Source of the DNA: a bacterium
GTDB taxonomy: Bacteria > Verrucomicrobiota > Kiritimatiellia > CAIKKV01 > CAITUY01
Direction: 5' to 3'
Length of the DNA stretch: 64,000 nt
NCBI GenBank assembly: GCA_037143175.1
Contig: JBAWZF010000012.1
Span: forward strand, 1-64,000
The notes under the pieces are model-generated. The model saw only the letters and a program-made list of their open reading frames with translations. It searched no databases and was not told where the DNA came from. The position numbers and the translations under genes are program-made. How positions within the stretch are numbered: position 1 is the stretch's first letter; every line of letters begins with the position of its first letter. Below are positions 6,626-31,442 of the stretch, piece after piece.

Positions 6626-7282
6626 TTTGATGCTTGGCCGACGGGCCTCGGAATCAAGTTGCTTCAGGGCCTCATTCACATCGTTCAGCCACGGGCTCTT
6701 GGGATTGCTGGCCAGAAAATCCTCATAGGTAGCGCGGGCCTCGACGTAACGCTTCAAATCCTGCAGGCATCGCGCTTTTCCGAATATCGCCATGGGCATC
6801 AGAAAGTGCTGGGGATGCTTGGCGGCAAATTGAGTAAAGGCCGTTAATGCAACTTCTGTGTTGCCCAGCCCCTCGGTACAATGGATTTTTCCCAGTTCAG
6901 CCATGGCAGCCATGGGGTGATCGGGATATTTCGATAGGAATTCCTGATAGTTGGACTGAGCCGCTACAAAGTCGCTGTTGTCATACTGAGCCTTAGCCAA
7001 TTGTAGCAGGGCTAATTTGGTGGCTGAGGTGTTCGGATACTGTGTGAGGATTGATTGCAGTGCCTGACTGTTGCGGGCTTCCCCGAGCATCCTGGAGGCT
7101 TTCTCTTCGTTATTGGCGTTGTTGGATCGGTAGAGTATCACCGCGAGAATCAAGATGGCTGCAATCCCGCCTGTAACAAGCCAGTTCCGCCATTCCGCAC
7201 CCGTTGACTCCAATGAAGCTCCTAGTTCGTGTCCAATCGGTTGCCCATGGTTCGGTTCATTATTATTTGTCATGATGATCAA
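6620..7282 (-). CDS. Membrane-anchored TPR protein (YfgM-like)
   Basis: A 220-residue protein (216 if the second Met is used). After a short polar N-terminus it has one transmembrane helix (about residues 34-50, WLVTGGIAAILILAVILY) and then a series of tetratricopeptide-like helical pairs to the end, for example AKAQYDNSDFVAAQSNYQEFLSKYP and ARCLQDLKRYVEARATYEDFL. The plan matches YfgM/CpoB-like periplasmic scaffold proteins held in the inner membrane. The partner is unknown. It converges on tatA with a repeat array between them. Function beyond protein-protein contact cannot be stated. Confidence 0.8.
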   Translation of the reverse strand: MIIMTNNNEPNHGQPIGHELGASLESTGAEWRNWLVTGGIAAILILAVILYRSNNANNEEKASRMLGEARNSQALQSILTQYPNTSATKLALLQLAKAQYDNSDFVAAQSNYQEFLSKYPDHPMAAMAELGKIHCTEGLGNTEVALTAFTQFAAKHPQHFLMPMAIFGKARCLQDLKRYVEARATYEDFLASNPKSPWLNDVNEALKQLDSEARRPSIKL

Positions 7283-7477
7283 TCCCTTTACGTCTGAAAA
7301 GTTCAGGCATTTAATACGGGTATGCCGGTTGAAGCAAGATCAAAATCTGAAACTCGTTATTCGTATTGTAGAGGCGGCGATCATTGGGCTGGTGTGGAAG
7401 ATTCTTGAATTGATGGTTTCGCTTTTGTTACGTTAACTCCTGTTCAATGTCATTCAAATGAGTATGAGGAGGCTATT

Positions 7478-7999
7478 ATGAGCGTACGAAGACTTAAGGC
7501 TGCAATTCGCGATGTGCCTGATTTTCCCCACCCAGGAATCATGTTCAAGGATATTACGCCGGTTCTTAAGGATCCGAAACTGTTTCGGGCTGCAGTCGAT
7601 TTGTTCGCCAAACGCCATCGAGACAAGGGTATTCGCAAAATTGCGGTGATTGACGCCCGTGGTTTCTTGTTTGGTGCCGCCTTGGCTTATAAGTTGAAAG
7701 CTGGCGTTGTACCGATCCGGAAAAAAGGGAAATTACCCTATCAGACTTATGAAGAAAGCTATGAACTCGAATATGGTTCGGCCACGCTGGCCATCCATAT
7801 CGATGCCTTTTCGCCTGGCGAGCCCGTCGTGTTGGTGGATGACCTTCTGGCCACTGGAGGGACGGCCTTGGCCTCCGCAAAGCTCATCGAGCGGGCTGGG
7901 GGGAAGGTGGAGGAAATAGACTTTCTCGTCGAGCTTGGATTCCTGAACGGGCGTGAGAAGCTTGGCGGCTATAACTTGTTTGCCCCAATCAAATATTGA
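7478..7999 (+). CDS. apt: Adenine phosphoribosyltransferase
   Basis: A 173-residue type I phosphoribosyltransferase, the usual Apt length. It has the N-terminal IRDVPDFPHPGIMFKDITP, the segment RGFLFGAALAYKL, the flexible loop with EYGSATLAIH and the PRPP-binding motif VVLVDDLLATGGTA. It salvages adenine with PRPP to AMP in the cytosol. GAGGAGG (7466-7472) precedes the ATG. The 3' end overlaps the converging DJ-1 gene by 11 bases. Confidence 0.97.
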   Translation: MSVRRLKAAIRDVPDFPHPGIMFKDITPVLKDPKLFRAAVDLFAKRHRDKGIRKIAVIDARGFLFGAALAYKLKAGVVPIRKKGKLPYQTYEESYELEYGSATLAIHIDAFSPGEPVVLVDDLLATGGTALASAKLIERAGGKVEEIDFLVELGFLNGREKLGGYNLFAPIKY

Positions 8000-8537
8000 G
8001 GCCAATGCTCTCGGAAATGGCTTGAGCCTTGGCGGCGTTGTCCACGAGGCGCACCAGGGTTAGTGCGAAGTCAAAAGTGGTTCCGGCTCCATGACTTGTG
8101 ACAATACGGCCATCAACGACGGTAGGTGCCGTGAGCCTTGGCGTGACGGTGAGTCGGCTGGCGACGCCCGGATGGCAGGTTACATTTCTACCAGTCAGAA
8201 TTCCCGCCGCCTGCAAGGTAAGGGGTGCTGCGCAAACGGCACCGATCCATTTTCCTGCCTGATGAAATTCTAGAATGGTTGCCAATAATGGCTTAAAATT
8301 AAGGAATTTCTCCACTCCCGGTCCGCCTCCAGGGATCATCAGAATATCATACTCGGAGGGGATAATTTCGGCCCATTGTTTGTCTGGTATCAGGCGGACA
8401 CCGCGCGATGCCGTTAAAATCCCTTGTTCAATTCCCGCCACGGTGACTCCCCACTGGGCACGGCGTAGGATATCAATAATGATAACCGCTTCCATTTCCT
8501 CGGTGCCATTGGCGATGGGGACAAGAACGTTAGGCAT
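7989..8537 (-). CDS. DJ-1/PfpI family protein (YajL/ThiJ-like)
   Basis: A 182-residue class I glutamine-amidotransferase-like protein of the DJ-1 group. The nucleophile elbow is GAVCAAPL with Cys102, the helper Glu is in GTEEMEA (residues 11-17), and the last strand contains TSHGAGTTFDFAL. Relatives act as glyoxalases or deglycases, or as redox-sensitive chaperones; which one applies here cannot be told. I chose the internal Met at 8537 because the family begins with a strand such as PNVLVPIANG; the longer frame overlaps the upstream gene. It follows the YugP gene by 13 bases and converges on apt. Confidence 0.88.
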   Translation of the reverse strand: MPNVLVPIANGTEEMEAVIIIDILRRAQWGVTVAGIEQGILTASRGVRLIPDKQWAEIIPSEYDILMIPGGGPGVEKFLNFKPLLATILEFHQAGKWIGAVCAAPLTLQAAGILTGRNVTCHPGVASRLTVTPRLTAPTVVDGRIVTSHGAGTTFDFALTLVRLVDNAAKAQAISESIGLNI

Positions 8538-8550
8538 AGGCTTGAATTCC

Positions 8551-9246
8551 CTAGTCGTTTCTCCGCCCCCCGAGCAGACCAGCACGGTAGAGATAGTAGA
8601 GCAGGGTGAGCAGGGCGGTGATGGCTGATGCCACGTAGGTCAAAAAGGCGGCATTCAGCACCCGTCCAGCGTCTTCCTGTTCGCGGATACTGACGATCCC
8701 TGATGAAACCATGAGTTTTTTGGCTCGCGCACTGGCATCCCATTCAACTGGCAGGGTGATCAGCGAGAATACAACCGTGATACTGAAAAGGATGACACCG
8801 ATTAGAATCATTTTCGGGTTGTGCATAAACATACCCAGCAGAAAGAAGATATAAGAGCCCCAACTGCCAATCTGGGTTGCTGGAACCAAAGAAGAACGGA
8901 GGCCCAACCAGACGTAGGCTGAAGCATGTTGTAACGCATGACCGGCTTCATGGCAGGCCACCCCAATGGCCGAGAGGGATGTGGAGTCATAAACGCCCTC
9001 CGACAAACGCAGGGTGTGGGAGGTAGGATCATAATGATCGCTTAAAAAACCACTGGCCCGTTCAATTTTAACATTTGTTACGCCGTTCCGGGCAAGCATC
9101 TGGCGTGCGGCTTCCGCTCCGGTCATGCCGGAGGCGGCCATGGTTTGCGAATAGTGCGCAAATGTGGATTTAACTTTGAAGGTGGCAATCAAAGCCAGCA
9201 CCATGCCTGGCCCGATAAATAAAAAATACAGAGGATCGAAAAACAT
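8551..9246 (-). CDS. YugP-family zinc metallopeptidase (membrane)
   Basis: A 231-residue membrane protein with the zinc protease motif HEAGH at residues 99-103, preceded by SAIGVAC. There is an N-terminal hydrophobic segment (about 4-22) and three further transmembrane stretches after the motif (about 122-137, 145-165, 205-222). Gly-Phe-Leu-Ser-Asp-His and the DPTSHTLRLSEGVYDS block are typical of the neutral zinc metallopeptidase 2 (YugP) family. The natural substrate is unknown in the family. It lies directly upstream of the DJ-1 gene and downstream of pta on the same strand. Confidence 0.9.
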   Translation of the reverse strand: MFFDPLYFLFIGPGMVLALIATFKVKSTFAHYSQTMAASGMTGAEAARQMLARNGVTNVKIERASGFLSDHYDPTSHTLRLSEGVYDSTSLSAIGVACHEAGHALQHASAYVWLGLRSSLVPATQIGSWGSYIFFLLGMFMHNPKMILIGVILFSITVVFSLITLPVEWDASARAKKLMVSSGIVSIREQEDAGRVLNAAFLTYVASAITALLTLLYYLYRAGLLGGRRND

Positions 9247-22705: not shown

Positions 22706-24274
22706 TTATAGCGCCTTAGCGTAGATGACGCGCGCATCCCCTTCATCGTAAAAGTTGGGGATACGTGCGGATTCGGTATAGCCAGTCTGGAGATAAAATC
22801 CGCGTGTGGAATCATAGAGGGGGCGCCCGGAGGTTTCTATAATGATGGCACGTCCTTTGGCGCGGCGGATGTGCTTCTCAACATGCTCCAGTAAGGCTCG
22901 TCCGAAGCCTCGGCCTTGAGCGTTGGCACTGACCCCGATCCAGTAGATATCAAACGTTCCTTTTGTGCATGGGGTAGGACCGCAGCAAATCCAACCAGCC
23001 GGCTGGCCGTCTGTGAGAAGCGTGAAGGATTGGTAGTGTCCTGATGGCCCCTTGGCGATTGCTTCCTCCAGCACTTCGCGCGCAACCTCAATTTCCCCAT
23101 CATGGAAAAAGCCCGTCCCCCGCATAAAGTCCAGAATGCCATCGCGGTCTGACGCCTCACTATGACGGATGCGCGGCTTTATACTGGATGAGGCCTTTTT
23201 TTTCAGTTGTTTTTTTTCAGCCTTTGGCTGCGCTGCTTTTTGATTGGCCGTCCTAAGTATCAAACGAGCGCGCGCATTCCCGCAAACCTTGCTAACGAAT
23301 TTCTGATACGGGATGCGAGTTGCGGTGAGAGCGGCGGCAAAGCCGCTATCGGGTGAAATATCGGGATTCGGATTAATTTCAAGAATTACGAAATTGCCCG
23401 CCGCATCCAACCGGAAATCCACGCGGGCATAATCTCGGCAGCCCATGGTGTGCCAGGCCGCCAGAGAAGCAGCCTGAAGGCGGCGGGCAATGGCCTTGTC
23501 CATGACCGCAGGAATCACGCGCACGGTGTTTTTATATTCGAAGGAATCCGTATGCCATTTGGCGGCATAATCCACAATTCTCGGACGATCTTTGCCAAAG
23601 TTCCTGAATTCGATTTCAGCCACGGGAAGGGTCTTGATGGTGGCCCCATCTTCAAAGATGGATATGTTGATTTCGCGGGTACCAAAAAATTGTTCCACTA
23701 GAGCGGGATGCTTGAATTCACGATGAACTCGTGCGACTGCTTTTATAAGATTAGCCATACCACCGGAAATAACCGAACTGGCGTGAATGCCCTCACTCGC
23801 GTCAGCAAATAGCGGTTTAACGATCCAGGGGGGCGGCGGGAGGGCTGCGCACATGGCGGCACCGTGGCCGGGCGGTATAATGAGTCCTGCCGGGACAGGA
23901 AGGCCCGCAGCTTTAAGGATCGCCTTCGTTCGCCATTTGTCCAGAGCCAAAACCTGACACGTGCTGTCATTGCCGGTACATTCTTTGCCGAACGCTTCGC
24001 AGAGAATGGGGACCTGCATGGCATCCGCAGGACGGCCGGGGAAATTCTCGACCAGATTAAAAACCAGACGTTCAGGGGCGCTTTGCAGAATTGCAGGGAG
24101 GGTGGCGAGTGACTCCACTGCCATGATCCTGAACGGAATTGCAAGCGACTTTAAGGCTTTGGCTACGGCGTGAACTTCCTCCATGACGCCGGCATCACTC
24201 TCGACGCTCTGGCAACTGCCGGGCGCGGGGAGAGCATGGTGCAAAATGAGGATCTGGTCGCAGGGGAAATTCAT
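22706..24274 (-). CDS. ATP-grasp ligase fused to a GNAT acetyltransferase
   Basis: A 522-residue fusion. Residues 1-335 are a D-Ala-D-Ala-ligase-like ATP-grasp enzyme: LDKWRTKAIL (111-120), WIVKPLFADASEG (150-162), the pair of acidic metal sites in YARVDFRLD and VILEINPNPD (296-305). A Lys/Ala-rich linker (about 344-365) leads to a GNAT domain (366-522) with the acetyl-CoA loop QGRGFGRA (453-460) and SGRPLYDSTRGFY. The start at 24274 overlaps the upstream ligase stop (ATGA). As third gene after a lysine 2,3-aminomutase and another ligase, it may join and acetylate a beta-lysine product; AblB, the known beta-lysine acetyltransferase, is also a GNAT. The substrate is not known. Confidence 0.88.
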   Translation of the reverse strand: MNFPCDQILILHHALPAPGSCQSVESDAGVMEEVHAVAKALKSLAIPFRIMAVESLATLPAILQSAPERLVFNLVENFPGRPADAMQVPILCEAFGKECTGNDSTCQVLALDKWRTKAILKAAGLPVPAGLIIPPGHGAAMCAALPPPPWIVKPLFADASEGIHASSVISGGMANLIKAVARVHREFKHPALVEQFFGTREINISIFEDGATIKTLPVAEIEFRNFGKDRPRIVDYAAKWHTDSFEYKNTVRVIPAVMDKAIARRLQAASLAAWHTMGCRDYARVDFRLDAAGNFVILEINPNPDISPDSGFAAALTATRIPYQKFVSKVCGNARARLILRTANQKAAQPKAEKKQLKKKASSSIKPRIRHSEASDRDGILDFMRGTGFFHDGEIEVAREVLEEAIAKGPSGHYQSFTLLTDGQPAGWICCGPTPCTKGTFDIYWIGVSANAQGRGFGRALLEHVEKHIRRAKGRAIIIETSGRPLYDSTRGFYLQTGYTESARIPNFYDEGDARVIYAKAL

Positions 24275-25263
24275 GCCGGTGTTGCCAATCGGGAGCATGC
24301 GCTATCGATGATGGCGCTGATAATATCTTTATAGCTCATTCCAATGAGCTTGCCGATAATTGGGAGATCTGAGTGGAGGGGATTAAGACCGGGGAGCGGA
24401 TTGACTTCCATAAATGAAGGGTTGCCGTCCCGGTCCATGCGGATATCCACCCGTCCAGCGTCACGGAGTTCCAGGGCTCGGTAAGAATCCAATGCCAGCT
24501 TTTCGACCGCTTCGGTTTCCGGTGTGCGAGGGGGGCAATGATAATCTACATAGTGGGTGTAGTTTTCCTTCACCTCGTAGGTGTAAATGGTGGGGGCGGA
24601 GTTGTCGCGGAAACAGACCTCCATGGTCCCCATGACACGTGCCTTGGCCCCCGTGCCAAGAATGGCCACAGTAAATTCGCGGCCGGGTAGAAATTCTTCA
24701 ATCAGAACCGGTTGGTTATATTTCAGCAGCAGGGTCTGGCAGACCGCCCGCAATTCGGCGGAGTTCGTAATCCTTGAGGTGCGGTCGATTCCTTTACCCG
24801 TTCCCTCGGCGATAGGTTTTGCAAAAAGAGGGAAGGGCAGATTGACCTTGGCAACGTCGAATTCGCTATGAACCACGTGAAAGCCCGCCGTATTGAGACC
24901 TTCCGCCTTGAGAATCCGTTTTGCCACCGCTTTGTCGAGAGTGACAGCACAGACCAACGGATCCGACATCGTGTACGGAATATCAAAGGCTTCTAACATG
25001 CAGGGGATTTGTGCTTCCCGGCTGCGACCGGAAACGCCCTCGGCAATGTTGAAGACCAGATCCCAGCGGGCCCCGGCGGCCAGTTTGCTGCAAAGTGCGC
25101 GGACATGTCCAATACGCTCGGGTTTAAACCCGAGCTCGGCAATGGTGCGCTCGATGGTGTCGATGGTGACATCTGCGTCAAACTCAGCGACATCCTCCTC
25201 TTTGTAGCCGAGGGCGAGATAGTCGCGCTTCAAGTCATAGGTCAATCCGATGGTTAGGCTCAC
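24271..25263 (-). CDS. D-Ala-D-Ala-ligase-like ATP-grasp enzyme
   Basis: A 330-residue ATP-grasp ligase. Ddl-like landmarks: EGVSGRSREAQIPCMLE (75-91), TLDKAVAKRIL (108-118), FAKPIAEGTGKG with Lys149, IEEFLPGREFTVA, and the metal site GRVDIRMD...FMEVNPLPGLNP (270-295). Such enzymes form a peptide or amide bond between two amino acids through an acyl phosphate. The GTG start is chosen because GGAGG within the last codons of kamA lies just upstream; the gap from kamA is 8 bases and the next gene overlaps by 4. It is unlikely to be the cell-wall Ddl, given its divergent sequence and setting. Confidence 0.9.
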   Translation of the reverse strand: MSLTIGLTYDLKRDYLALGYKEEDVAEFDADVTIDTIERTIAELGFKPERIGHVRALCSKLAAGARWDLVFNIAEGVSGRSREAQIPCMLEAFDIPYTMSDPLVCAVTLDKAVAKRILKAEGLNTAGFHVVHSEFDVAKVNLPFPLFAKPIAEGTGKGIDRTSRITNSAELRAVCQTLLLKYNQPVLIEEFLPGREFTVAILGTGAKARVMGTMEVCFRDNSAPTIYTYEVKENYTHYVDYHCPPRTPETEAVEKLALDSYRALELRDAGRVDIRMDRDGNPSFMEVNPLPGLNPLHSDLPIIGKLIGMSYKDIISAIIDSACSRLATPA

Positions 25264-25271
25264 GTGGGGTC

Positions 25272-26684
25272 TTAACCTCCGCCTTCCGCCATAAGTGATT
25301 CCAACAAGATCCGGAATTCGGGATGTTCCTGTCCAGGATCCGGCTTCTGATACTTGCGGGCGGATCGACGTTTGTTTCGATTGGAGTTTGCAGGCGTAAT
25401 CACCGAAGAATGGCCTGCGGCCACTTCCCAGACGCCGTGGCTTCCACTTCGTGTCCCGGCAGGCGCCGGAGTGCGGGCCATGGGTTCCATCGGTTCGGGA
25501 TAGTTAACAATCATGCCTTCAAAGTTCCGGAGCACGGTGTGTGTCGGACTGGAAGAGATAATGTAATTGGGCAATACAGGGATCTTGCCGCCACCGTGCG
25601 GGGCGTCGACCACATAGGCCGGGATGGCCAGACCGCTAAGCCGCCCACGAAGATATTCCATGATCTCAATACCTCTACTGATCGGGGTACGGAAATGCTC
25701 AACCCCTCTTACCAGATCGCATTGGAAAAGGTAATAAGGGCGGACGCGGATTTTCACGAGACCGCGCAAAAGTTCCTCCATCACCTGAGGGGAGTCGTTG
25801 ATACCTCGCAGAAGTACCGTCTGGTTCCCGAGCGGAATTCCGGCATTGACCAGCTTGGCGCAGGCGGCTGTGGATTCAGTGGTGATCTCGTTGGGATGGT
25901 TAAAATGGGTGTTAACCCACACCGGATGGTATTTCGCCAACATCTGGGTTAGTTCTGAATTAATCCGTTGGGGCAAGACTACCGGAACGCGAGTCCCGAT
26001 CCGGATGATATCCACGCTGGGTACTGAGCGTACGGCGGCCAGAATACGTTCCAGCAGAGAGGTTGCCATAGTCAGCGGATCTCCGCCGGAGATGACTACA
26101 TCCTTGATTTCCGGATGAGCCCGGAGATAGCCCGTGATGGTGTTCAGTTGGGCGACATCAATACAGGATTCCTGGTATCCGGCTACACGCTTCCGGGTGC
26201 AGTGGCGGCAATACATTGAGCACATGGTGGTTGCCATCAAGAGTGCGCGGTCTCGGTACCGGTGAATCAATCCTGGTACAGGCATATCTTCCTCTTCTTC
26301 CAAAGGATCCGCATGCAGGAAGTCGGGTGCAAAAAGTTCCTGCCCCTGAGGCACGCTCATCTGGAAAACAGGATCAGATAGATCTGTTGTTTTGATGAGT
26401 GAGGCGTAATAAGGGGTGATGGCCATGGGGTATTTTTCACATACCCGGGCAATGCCCTTATTGGTTTTTAGTGAGGGGAAGAATTCTGTGAGTTCATTGA
26501 ACGTCCGGATGCGGTTCCGAACCTGCCAGCGCCAGTCATTCCACTTTGGGTTTTGTTGAGGGTTGAGCGTGGATGAGGGCAGGGGCGCGGCAGAGCTTGT
26601 ACTTGCAGGCTCATCACTACTACTAAGCGGAGGTTCTTCTTTTACTGAGACTAACTCGTTTGTCATATTATTATTGCTATTCAT
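25272..26684 (-). CDS. kamA: Lysine 2,3-aminomutase (radical SAM, KamA family)
   Basis: A 470-residue radical SAM, PLP-dependent aminomutase. The N-terminal WNDWRWQVRNRI block, the cluster motif CSMYCRHC (Cys155, Cys159, Cys162), SAM-binding GGDP, and the PLP lysine in GGGKIPV (Lys367) are present. Asp323 (QCDLVRG) and Asp360 (VVDAPHG) match the two aspartates that hold the side-chain amine of lysine in the clostridial enzyme; the EF-P enzyme EpmB and glutamate mutases lack them. So L-lysine to L-beta-lysine is the likely reaction. It heads a tight operon with two ATP-grasp enzymes, behind a TetR gene. An added 40-residue Ser/Pro-rich N-terminus and a 70-residue tail differ from the family core. 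Confidence 0.93.
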   Translation of the reverse strand: MNSNNNMTNELVSVKEEPPLSSSDEPASTSSAAPLPSSTLNPQQNPKWNDWRWQVRNRIRTFNELTEFFPSLKTNKGIARVCEKYPMAITPYYASLIKTTDLSDPVFQMSVPQGQELFAPDFLHADPLEEEEDMPVPGLIHRYRDRALLMATTMCSMYCRHCTRKRVAGYQESCIDVAQLNTITGYLRAHPEIKDVVISGGDPLTMATSLLERILAAVRSVPSVDIIRIGTRVPVVLPQRINSELTQMLAKYHPVWVNTHFNHPNEITTESTAACAKLVNAGIPLGNQTVLLRGINDSPQVMEELLRGLVKIRVRPYYLFQCDLVRGVEHFRTPISRGIEIMEYLRGRLSGLAIPAYVVDAPHGGGKIPVLPNYIISSSPTHTVLRNFEGMIVNYPEPMEPMARTPAPAGTRSGSHGVWEVAAGHSSVITPANSNRNKRRSARKYQKPDPGQEHPEFRILLESLMAEGGG

Positions 26685-26764
26685 CTAAAACTCCTGGTTA
26701 AAAAGCTTTTTTTAAACTGATATAAAAATCTAAATTCCGAACAAACCATACCTGACAGGCCGGT

Positions 26765-27406
26765 CTACACGGCACACCTCGGTCGTTGCGACGTGCCGAT
26801 CAGCAGCGACTGTCGCGCCAGATCGAGGTTAGTGATCACGTCATGTTTACTACTTAAAATGGATAGGCCGACGGTGATGTGTCCGCAAATGGTGGCGGCG
26901 ATGGCGACAGCCAAGCGACGCGTGTCAACGGCATTAACAGGAGCCGGAAGTATCGGGGCTAAGCGTTGCTCCAGTTCGGTGATGTATCGGGCGAACGGGG
27001 GTTGAAGTCCCGGCACGGCTGCTGACCGCGCTGCCACCATCATCTGGCCTTGCAAAAAAACATTAAACAAGTCTGCGCGTTCAGATAGGAACGTTACATG
27101 GGCATTAAAAAGCTGGGTGATCCGATCTTCAAGCGAGAGAGGGGCAGTGGTGGTGGTGGGCATGCGCAGGATCAAATCATCAGTAGCCAGATCGAGAAGA
27201 GTGCGGAGAACATCCATTTTATCCATAAAGTGGCGGTAGAACGTCCCTTTGCCGACATCCGCACTTTCAGTGATATCTTCGATGGCACAGGCTTCAATAC
27301 CTTTGGTATTGAAGACATAGAGGGCAGCGTCTAGCAATCGCTGTCGGGTTTTGGTAGCCCGTCGCGATGCTCTGCCCTCAGTTCTAGGGTCTGGTTCGTC
27401 GTCCAT
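26765..27406 (-). CDS. TetR/AcrR-family regulator
   Basis: A 213-residue repressor-type protein. The N-terminal helix-turn-helix spans about residues 17-66 (TRQRLLDAALYVFNTKG, then ITESADVGKGTFYRHF). The remainder is a helical ligand domain with no clear family clue. It lies 80 bases upstream of kamA on the same strand, so it may be the first gene of that operon and control it. Two copies of ACTGACTAT, each part of an inverted repeat, lie upstream of its start and are candidate operators. The ligand is unknown. Confidence 0.9.
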   Translation of the reverse strand: MDDEPDPRTEGRASRRATKTRQRLLDAALYVFNTKGIEACAIEDITESADVGKGTFYRHFMDKMDVLRTLLDLATDDLILRMPTTTTAPLSLEDRITQLFNAHVTFLSERADLFNVFLQGQMMVAARSAAVPGLQPPFARYITELEQRLAPILPAPVNAVDTRRLAVAIAATICGHITVGLSILSSKHDVITNLDLARQSLLIGTSQRPRCAV

Positions 27407-27422
27407 TTTTTCGTCACCAGTA

Positions 27423-27556
27423 AGTCAAAACTGACTATTTGGTCGCTTTTTCGCTTGTTGTTGCGGCCATTAAGCCTTGATTCTCAAGATACACACAATA
27501 GCTTGTGGTTTCTTATTGTTCTCTTGTTTAAGGGGAAAATAGTCGCTACTGACTAT
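27423..27556. promoter_or_regulatory. Paired inverted repeats, candidate TetR operators
   Basis: Site 1: AGTCA-AAAC-TGACT (27423-27436). Site 2: ATAGTC-GCTACT-GACTAT (27539-27556). Both contain ACTGACTAT (27430-27438 and 27548-27556), 118 bases apart. They lie in the 165-base gap upstream of the tetR-kamA-ligase cluster. Repeated short palindromes before a TetR gene fit autoregulation. No other feature is seen in the gap. Confidence 0.5.
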
Positions 27557-27571
27557 ACCGTCAATAAACTT

Positions 27572-31326: not shown

Positions 31327-31329
31327 GTC

Positions 31330-31406
31330 CAAATCTTGGGGTGCCCTTTCGTTGGGCTGAGATTATACCCGTTGAACCTGTCTGGGTCATTCCAGCGTAG
31401 GGATTA
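31330..31406 (+). ncRNA. TPP riboswitch (THI element)
   Basis: The conserved thi-box parts appear in order: GGGGTGCCC (31338-31346), GGGCTGAGA (31354-31362), ACCCGTTGAACCTG (31367-31380), TCTGGGT, CCAGCGTAGGGA (31392-31403). AATC (31332-31335) and GATT (31402-31405) close helix P1. It binds thiamine pyrophosphate and shuts the thi genes when the vitamin is plentiful. It directly follows the promoter and precedes a terminator hairpin next to thiS. Confidence 0.96.
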
Positions 31407-31413
31407 TAACTGG

Positions 31414-31442
31414 AAGGCGCCTCAAAAAGGGGCGCTTTTTTT
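31414..31442 (+). terminator. Riboswitch expression-platform terminator, abutting thiS
   Basis: AAGGCGCCTC (31414-31423) and GGGGCGCTTT (31429-31438) form a 10-bp stem with two G-T pairs and loop AAAAA, followed by seven T in all (31436-31442). The thiS ATG is the very next base. The only purine-rich ribosome site, AAGGGG (31427-31432), lies in the loop and 3' arm, so the hairpin could block both transcription and translation. Confidence 0.8.

Follow-up and report, generated by a model that had tools for sequence, protein, structure and literature searches.

The subject of this analysis is a four-gene operon in a 64,000-nucleotide stretch of DNA (positions 1 to 64,000 of contig JBAWZF010000012.1, assembly GCA_037143175.1; hereafter the window) from a bacterium of the Kiritimatiellia, whose assembly comprises 107 contigs and is 95% complete. 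On the minus strand, positions 22706-27406 encode in order a TetR-family regulator, a lysine 2,3-aminomutase-type radical SAM enzyme (KamA), an ATP-grasp ligase of the Ddl fold (Lig1) and a second such ligase fused to a GNAT acetyltransferase domain (Lig2-GNAT). We judge it fairly probable that this operon is a conserved, undescribed cassette for an N-acetylated small peptide with beta-lysine. The initial annotation of the window had placed at these positions tetR, kamA and two Ddl-like ATP-grasp genes, one of them GNAT-fused, on the same strand; gene calls and Pfam domains agree.

KamA (470 aa, 25272..26684, minus strand; Pfam Radical_SAM and LAM_C) aligns with the lysine 2,3-aminomutase of C. 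subterminale (2a5h) at 476 bits across 396 residues. It carries the CxxxCxxC motif and equivalents of Arg134, which binds the carboxylate, of Asp293 and Asp330, which bind lysine, and of Lys337, the pyridoxal phosphate lysine, and these are invariant in every cassette KamA covering those sites. The lysine-type residues ascribed earlier to KamA are therefore borne out both by the 2a5h alignment and by all cassette KamAs. Both aspartates are replaced in glutamate 2,3-aminomutase. KamA scores above the cut-off of the KamA-family subfamily model TIGR00238, slightly below the equivalog cut-off of the AblA model TIGR03820 (506.5 against 525.4 bits) and at 245 against a cut-off of 369.3 with the EpmB model. 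No other KamA homologue was found in its genome, and we infer from its sequence that it makes beta-lysine.

Lig1 (330 aa, 24271..25263, minus strand) matches PF07478 (Dala_Dala_lig_C) at 1e-28, and Lig2-GNAT (522 aa, 22706..24274, minus strand) matches PF07478 at 3e-22 and PF00583 (Acetyltransf_1) at 4e-10. The AlphaFold model of Lig1 has a predicted local distance difference test score (pLDDT) of 91.7, while that of Lig2-GNAT (pLDDT 83.7) consists of two folded domains joined by a low-confidence linker; for both models the best PDB matches are Ddl structures. In alignment, both ligases retain K97, K144, E187, K215, R255, D257 and N272 of E. coli DdlB, and the ATP, Mg and acyl-phosphate residues of the Ddl fold are present in both. 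The pocket positions have changed: that of DdlB Tyr216 is occupied by Trp, Glu, Arg or Asp in Lig1 and by Trp in Lig2, that of Leu282 is altered in both ligases, and that of Ser281 is kept in Lig1 and is mostly Ala in Lig2. Nearly all Lig2 sequences have also lost Gly276. Around DdlB Glu15, whose equivalent binds the first amino group, 78 of 81 Lig1 sequences share an E-x-D motif, with an alignment there that is uncertain by one column. By fold and retained residues, Lig1 and Lig2 are ATP-grasp carboxylate-amine ligases of the Ddl type in which the catalytic residues are kept and the D-Ala pocket is altered.

The database models closest to the cassette ligases describe D-alanine--D-alanine ligases, and the present evidence contradicts that function. 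With the NCBIfam Ddl models (cut-off 243) Lig1 scores 157 and Lig2 108, and a canonical Ddl, at 351 bits against the same cut-off, adjoins an ftsQ-like gene elsewhere in the genome. We rejected a cell-wall D-Ala-D-Ala ligase identity for Lig1 and Lig2 on these sub-threshold scores, the altered pocket and the separate canonical enzyme. Ligases acting on D-alanine only, an outcome that the initial annotation had named as fatal to its proposal, are unlikely because the pocket residues are changed and the canonical Ddl is encoded elsewhere. Two further kinds of ATP-grasp gene were noted in passing. The same genome holds an orphan Ddl-like ligase (L178:1494-2549, minus strand), far under the Ddl cut-offs and with cassette-ligase features (AKW motif), and several loci (L059:9621-10562, L063, L068, L084, L091, L093 and L094) encode close to the cassette a third ATP-grasp protein, which is RimK-like and matches Pfam hardly or not at all.

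The GNAT domain of Lig2-GNAT (22706..23179, minus strand) served as the cassette marker. Its closest solved relative, at 102 bits, is PDB 2r7h, which we take to come from Desulfovibrio G20 and which is entered as a 'Putative D-alanine N-acetyltransferase of GNAT family', the named activity being itself putative. With the AblB model TIGR03827 (cut-off 205) a cassette GNAT homologue scored 15.6 and the window's own domain gave no listed match; a model search found no AblB in the window's genome. An AblB identity for the domain was ruled out on both counts. The fusion to Lig2 seen in the window is one of two states, and GNAT is a separate gene where the order is Lig1-Lig2-GNAT-KamA.

The cassette is widely conserved. 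Searching GTDB genomes with the GNAT alignment returned 430 relatives, of which the best 80 loci were classified, and the four-enzyme set is complete in 67 of these 80. Among the complete loci, 59 have the order Lig1-Lig2-GNAT-KamA, seven have KamA-Lig1-Lig2-GNAT and one has Lig1 and Lig2 in a single reading frame. This last case, an Ignavibacteria record (L112:5141-7198) with a frame of 685 residues, is not a certain fusion because the stretch has an ambiguous residue inside it. The 13 incomplete loci comprise seven in which the missing part falls at or close to a contig end, among them L096, whose genome has Lig1 on a different contig, three from spirochaetes (L065, L072 and L073, with phosphonate-type ABC transporter-like genes downstream in the first two) and three from acidobacteria. 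Named hosts belong to Acidobacteriota/Aminicenantes, KSB1, Lentisphaerota, Ignavibacteriota, Fidelibacterota, Calditrichota, Kryptoniota, Chloroflexota and Bacteroidota, while Spirochaetes hold the partial form. Closer to the window, the order TetR-KamA-Lig1-Lig2/GNAT recurs in genomes of the same genus, the same family and the same order. The genome search that the initial annotation had proposed for the kamA-ATPgrasp-ATPgrasp/GNAT order finds it across genus, family and order, and the four enzymes together in many phyla, ruling out uniqueness to this contig, and recurrence in these relatives and in the 67 GTDB loci likewise led us to reject a chance arrangement or contig artefact.

The enzymes also occur together where their genes are apart. 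The operon is split in the families coded f2 and f5: in genomes G012 and G016 Lig1 stands apart with KamA still adjoining Lig2-GNAT, and in G009 and G014 KamA and Lig1 are together with Lig2-GNAT elsewhere in the genome. Both Lig1 and a KamA homologue are present in all 14 genomes that were searched again, mostly picked for a GNAT locus without some part; G122, G189 and G218 have the two genes side by side, away from GNAT. Among 388 genomes of the window's phylum, strong matches to GNAT (n=39, two weak matches excluded) and to Lig1 (n=40, E <= 1e-100) fall together in 38 genomes, with Lig1 only in two, GNAT only in one, whose contig stops at the cassette, and neither in 347. Fisher's test gives p ~4e-49, a value that overstates the strength of the association because related genomes are not independent and because both score thresholds were set after viewing the lists, in which strong and weak matches stand far apart in score. 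As a control, none of 14 non-cassette KamA genes in related genomes has a ligase neighbour. Conservation across phyla, co-occurrence without linkage and the conserved lysine-binding residues of KamA together support the proposal, made at first annotation, of a dedicated pathway built on KamA, two ligases and an acetyltransferase. Since distantly related bacteria in large number share this set of enzymes, the cassette probably makes a still undescribed small molecule.

Plasmid searches found no cassette on plasmids. Spread by plasmids was considered and set aside, the plasmid GNAT and ATP-grasp matches being only distantly related and differently placed (for example on plasmids of Nostoc, Deinococcus, Aquisphaera and rhizobia). 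Rhizobial symbiosis plasmids, including L127:6773-7783, do carry a Lig1-like ATP-grasp gene with no KamA annotated nearby, which in NGR234 is near a CapA-family gene.

Genes beside the cassette give circumstantial pointers to the product. In locus L015 the operon itself encodes, between KamA and Lig1, a histone deacetylase (HDAC)-like protein with a GNAT domain of its own (6997-8799, minus strand); HDAC-like genes adjoin or lie near KamA or Lig2-GNAT in L071, L092, L093, L094, L107 and L172, and in the last of these a GNAT and HDAC-like fusion protein stands directly beside the cassette (L172:3398-5656, minus strand). Relatives without the GNAT cassette encode a Lig1-like ligase fused to a peptidase of S58, the family of the DmpA/BapA beta-aminopeptidases (L020:6405-8624, plus strand; L025:5467-7623, minus strand; L023, L024, L026 and L027), and in five of these six loci an HDAC-like gene lies beside the fusion, which is possibly a second beta-peptide system in the same bacterial class. 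HDAC-like enzymes deacetylate amines of the lysine or polyamine type, and peptidases of S58 can remove a beta-amino acid from the N terminus. Because of these deacetylase and beta-aminopeptidase activities, both neighbours would fit an acetylated beta-lysine peptide.

A pathway may be proposed from these enzymes. KamA, judging by its fold and residues, would convert L-lysine to beta-lysine. Lig1 would activate a carboxylate with ATP to an acyl phosphate and couple it to an amine, as the chemistry of the Ddl fold predicts, and beta-lysine would thereby enter a dipeptide. Lig2 would carry out a second ATP-driven coupling with a second partner, and the fused GNAT domain, by the chemistry of its fold, would acetylate one amine from acetyl-CoA, perhaps that of the side chain. 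In some genomes the HDAC-like deacetylase would probably recycle or tune the product. We thus infer that the ligases use beta-lysine and that GNAT acetylates what they make. The most likely role of the product, by analogy, may be that of a protective solute, a proposal that we hold with less confidence than the pathway itself. The wider reading is one to which we give not quite an even chance: a new class of metabolites, acetylated beta-peptides assembled from beta-lysine by ligases independent of the ribosome and of nonribosomal peptide synthetases in uncultured bacteria of about ten phyla, with turnover enzymes of its own (the HDAC-like deacetylase and, in relatives, the ligase-beta-aminopeptidase fusion). 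The cassette points to a metabolite of many uncultured, probably mostly anaerobic bacteria, including Aminicenantes, Kiritimatiellota, KSB1 and Ignavibacteriota. Our literature search found no publication joining an aminomutase, an ATP-grasp ligase and an acetyltransferase or describing the cassette, which is weak evidence of novelty as most subscription journals lay outside that search. Because the four-gene cassette has defined enzyme chemistry, its product is directly testable by expression and mass spectrometry.

Several observations weigh against this pathway. Around Lig2-GNAT the three spirochaete loci encode neither KamA nor Lig1, and the three acidobacterial loci have GNAT alone, in each case within the locus neighbourhood. 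Cassette KamAs make up at least three groups in the KamA tree, with non-cassette KamAs between them, and since they do not form one clade the link between KamA and the cassette has been gained or lost more than once. Distances among the four cassette proteins correlate at 0.84-0.95 across 74 loci, figures that include the shared ancestry of the hosts. The beta-lysine peptide is predicted from sequence and structure models and the solute role by analogy, and neither an osmotic regulator nor a riboswitch was found at the operon. KamA may moreover have two customers and also feed beta-lysine to the translation factor EF-P, an alternative taken up below.

The gene arrangement and its upstream region are consistent with a single regulated unit. 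The eight bases between the kamA stop and the GTG start of lig1, and the four-base overlap of lig1 and lig2-gnat, are both seen in the sequence as the initial annotation had them, and a Shine-Dalgarno-like GGCGGAGG for lig1 sits within the 3' end of kamA. The longest open reading frame of lig2-gnat begins at 24298; the alternative ATG at 24274, from which the 522 residues are counted, appears the likelier start because it overlaps the lig1 stop as ATGA. The regulator gene tetR (213 aa, 26765..27406, minus strand; Pfam TetR_N 3e-11) keeps the same position in L012, L013, L030-L033, L035, L036 and L040. Upstream of it lies a candidate promoter, TTGACG-N17-TATTTT (27536..27564, minus strand), the sole exact match with that spacing in the window, where 0.01 are expected. 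A palindromic candidate operator, TAGTCAGTAGCGACTA, lies inside the promoter spacer (27540..27555, minus strand), and a near-copy, TAGTCAGTTTTGACTTA, directly precedes the tetR start (27421..27437, minus strand). With at most one mismatch the operator motif occurs twice in the 64 kb, both times upstream of tetR (0.16 matches expected), and four further genomes of the genus conserve both regions, the promoter region included. Given these two conserved palindromes, TetR is probably an autoregulatory repressor, which by repressing its own promoter would repress the whole operon. Flanking regulators vary among cassettes, either TetR or two-component genes. No Rfam riboswitch match was found at the operon; elsewhere in the window, a thiamine pyrophosphate riboswitch (31327-31420, plus strand) lies upstream of thiG-like and thiH-like reading frames.

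Supply of EF-P is the first alternative to be weighed. The initial annotation had dismissed EF-P beta-lysylation for lack of efp and EpmA; both are indeed absent from the window, but the argument fails for the genome, which holds an efp-epmA pair elsewhere. There, efp and the first part of epmA border a contig break and another contig carries the remainder of epmA (L123:2-984 and L122:1-507), with efp at 210 bits, above the cut-off, and the two contig-end pieces of epmA at 140 and 169 bits. No second KamA or EpmB was found in this genome, and EpmA scores above its cut-off in 45 of 58 related genomes. With efp-epmA present and the window's KamA the only homologue found, the dismissal is unsupported and KamA may also serve EF-P. 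The stronger claim, that KamA mainly supplies beta-lysine for EpmA-dependent EF-P modification and that the ligases and GNAT make a product free of it, seems to us unlikely. KamA accompanies the ligases in many phyla, whichever the gene order, the 14 non-cassette KamAs have no such neighbours, and genomes G036 and G017 hold a second, non-cassette KamA besides the cassette copy. EpmA, in addition, uses the (R)-beta-lysine made by EpmB, whereas KamA and AblA make the (S) form. EF-P supply by KamA also leaves the ligases and GNAT unexplained.

The Ddl fold of both ligases invites a second alternative, an envelope modification in which they would supply peptidoglycan with a stem or cross-bridge peptide that contains beta-lysine. 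A report on lichen Nostoc (PMC5987646), in which LAM appears among the abbreviations, calls the operon of an extra 'type 3' D-Ala-D-Ala ligase a peptidoglycan modifier. We give little credence to such a role here, as no mur, flippase or transferase gene recurred among the neighbour clusters examined, the canonical Ddl has its own place beside the ftsQ-like gene and N-acetylation would block the amine required for cross-linking. Equally doubtful is that the system centres on N-epsilon-acetyl-beta-lysine, a known bacterial and archaeal solute (PMC9337991, PMC3543383), made by KamA and GNAT in a genome without AblB: the GNAT domain fails the AblB model and is ligase-fused in the window, and the ligases persist where GNAT does. 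A secreted antibiotic-like compound or signal is very improbable, for although beta-lysine is found in antibiotics such as viomycin and streptothricin and variable regulators flank the cassette, no recurrent exporter or resistance gene was noticed near cassettes, which are conserved through genus, family and order and were not found on plasmids.

The cassette shares features with several known systems and differs from each. D-alanine--D-alanine ligases of the Ddl and VanA type share the fold and the ATP and acyl-phosphate residues of Lig1 and Lig2, which however score far under the Ddl cut-offs and have the DdlB Y216 and L282 positions replaced. The lichen Nostoc operon, a possible counterpart, also has an extra Ddl-like ligase, and LAM is among the abbreviations of its report (PMC5987646). 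In the EpmB/EpmA system a KamA-family aminomutase likewise supplies beta-lysine, but the cassette KamA falls below the EpmB cut-off and is clustered with ligases rather than with efp-epmA. The AblA/AblB route shares a lysine 2,3-aminomutase and a GNAT acetyltransferase; in the cassette, GNAT is not AblB, KamA is slightly under the AblA cut-off and two ATP-grasp ligases are added. Finally, the N-acetylglutaminylglutamine amide (NAGGN) cassette makes an acetylated dipeptide osmolyte with an ATP-grasp/GNAT fusion, an architecture also seen in Lig2-GNAT, whereas the window's GNAT domain has no match to the NAGGN models and its operon contains KamA instead of an asparagine-synthetase-like gene.

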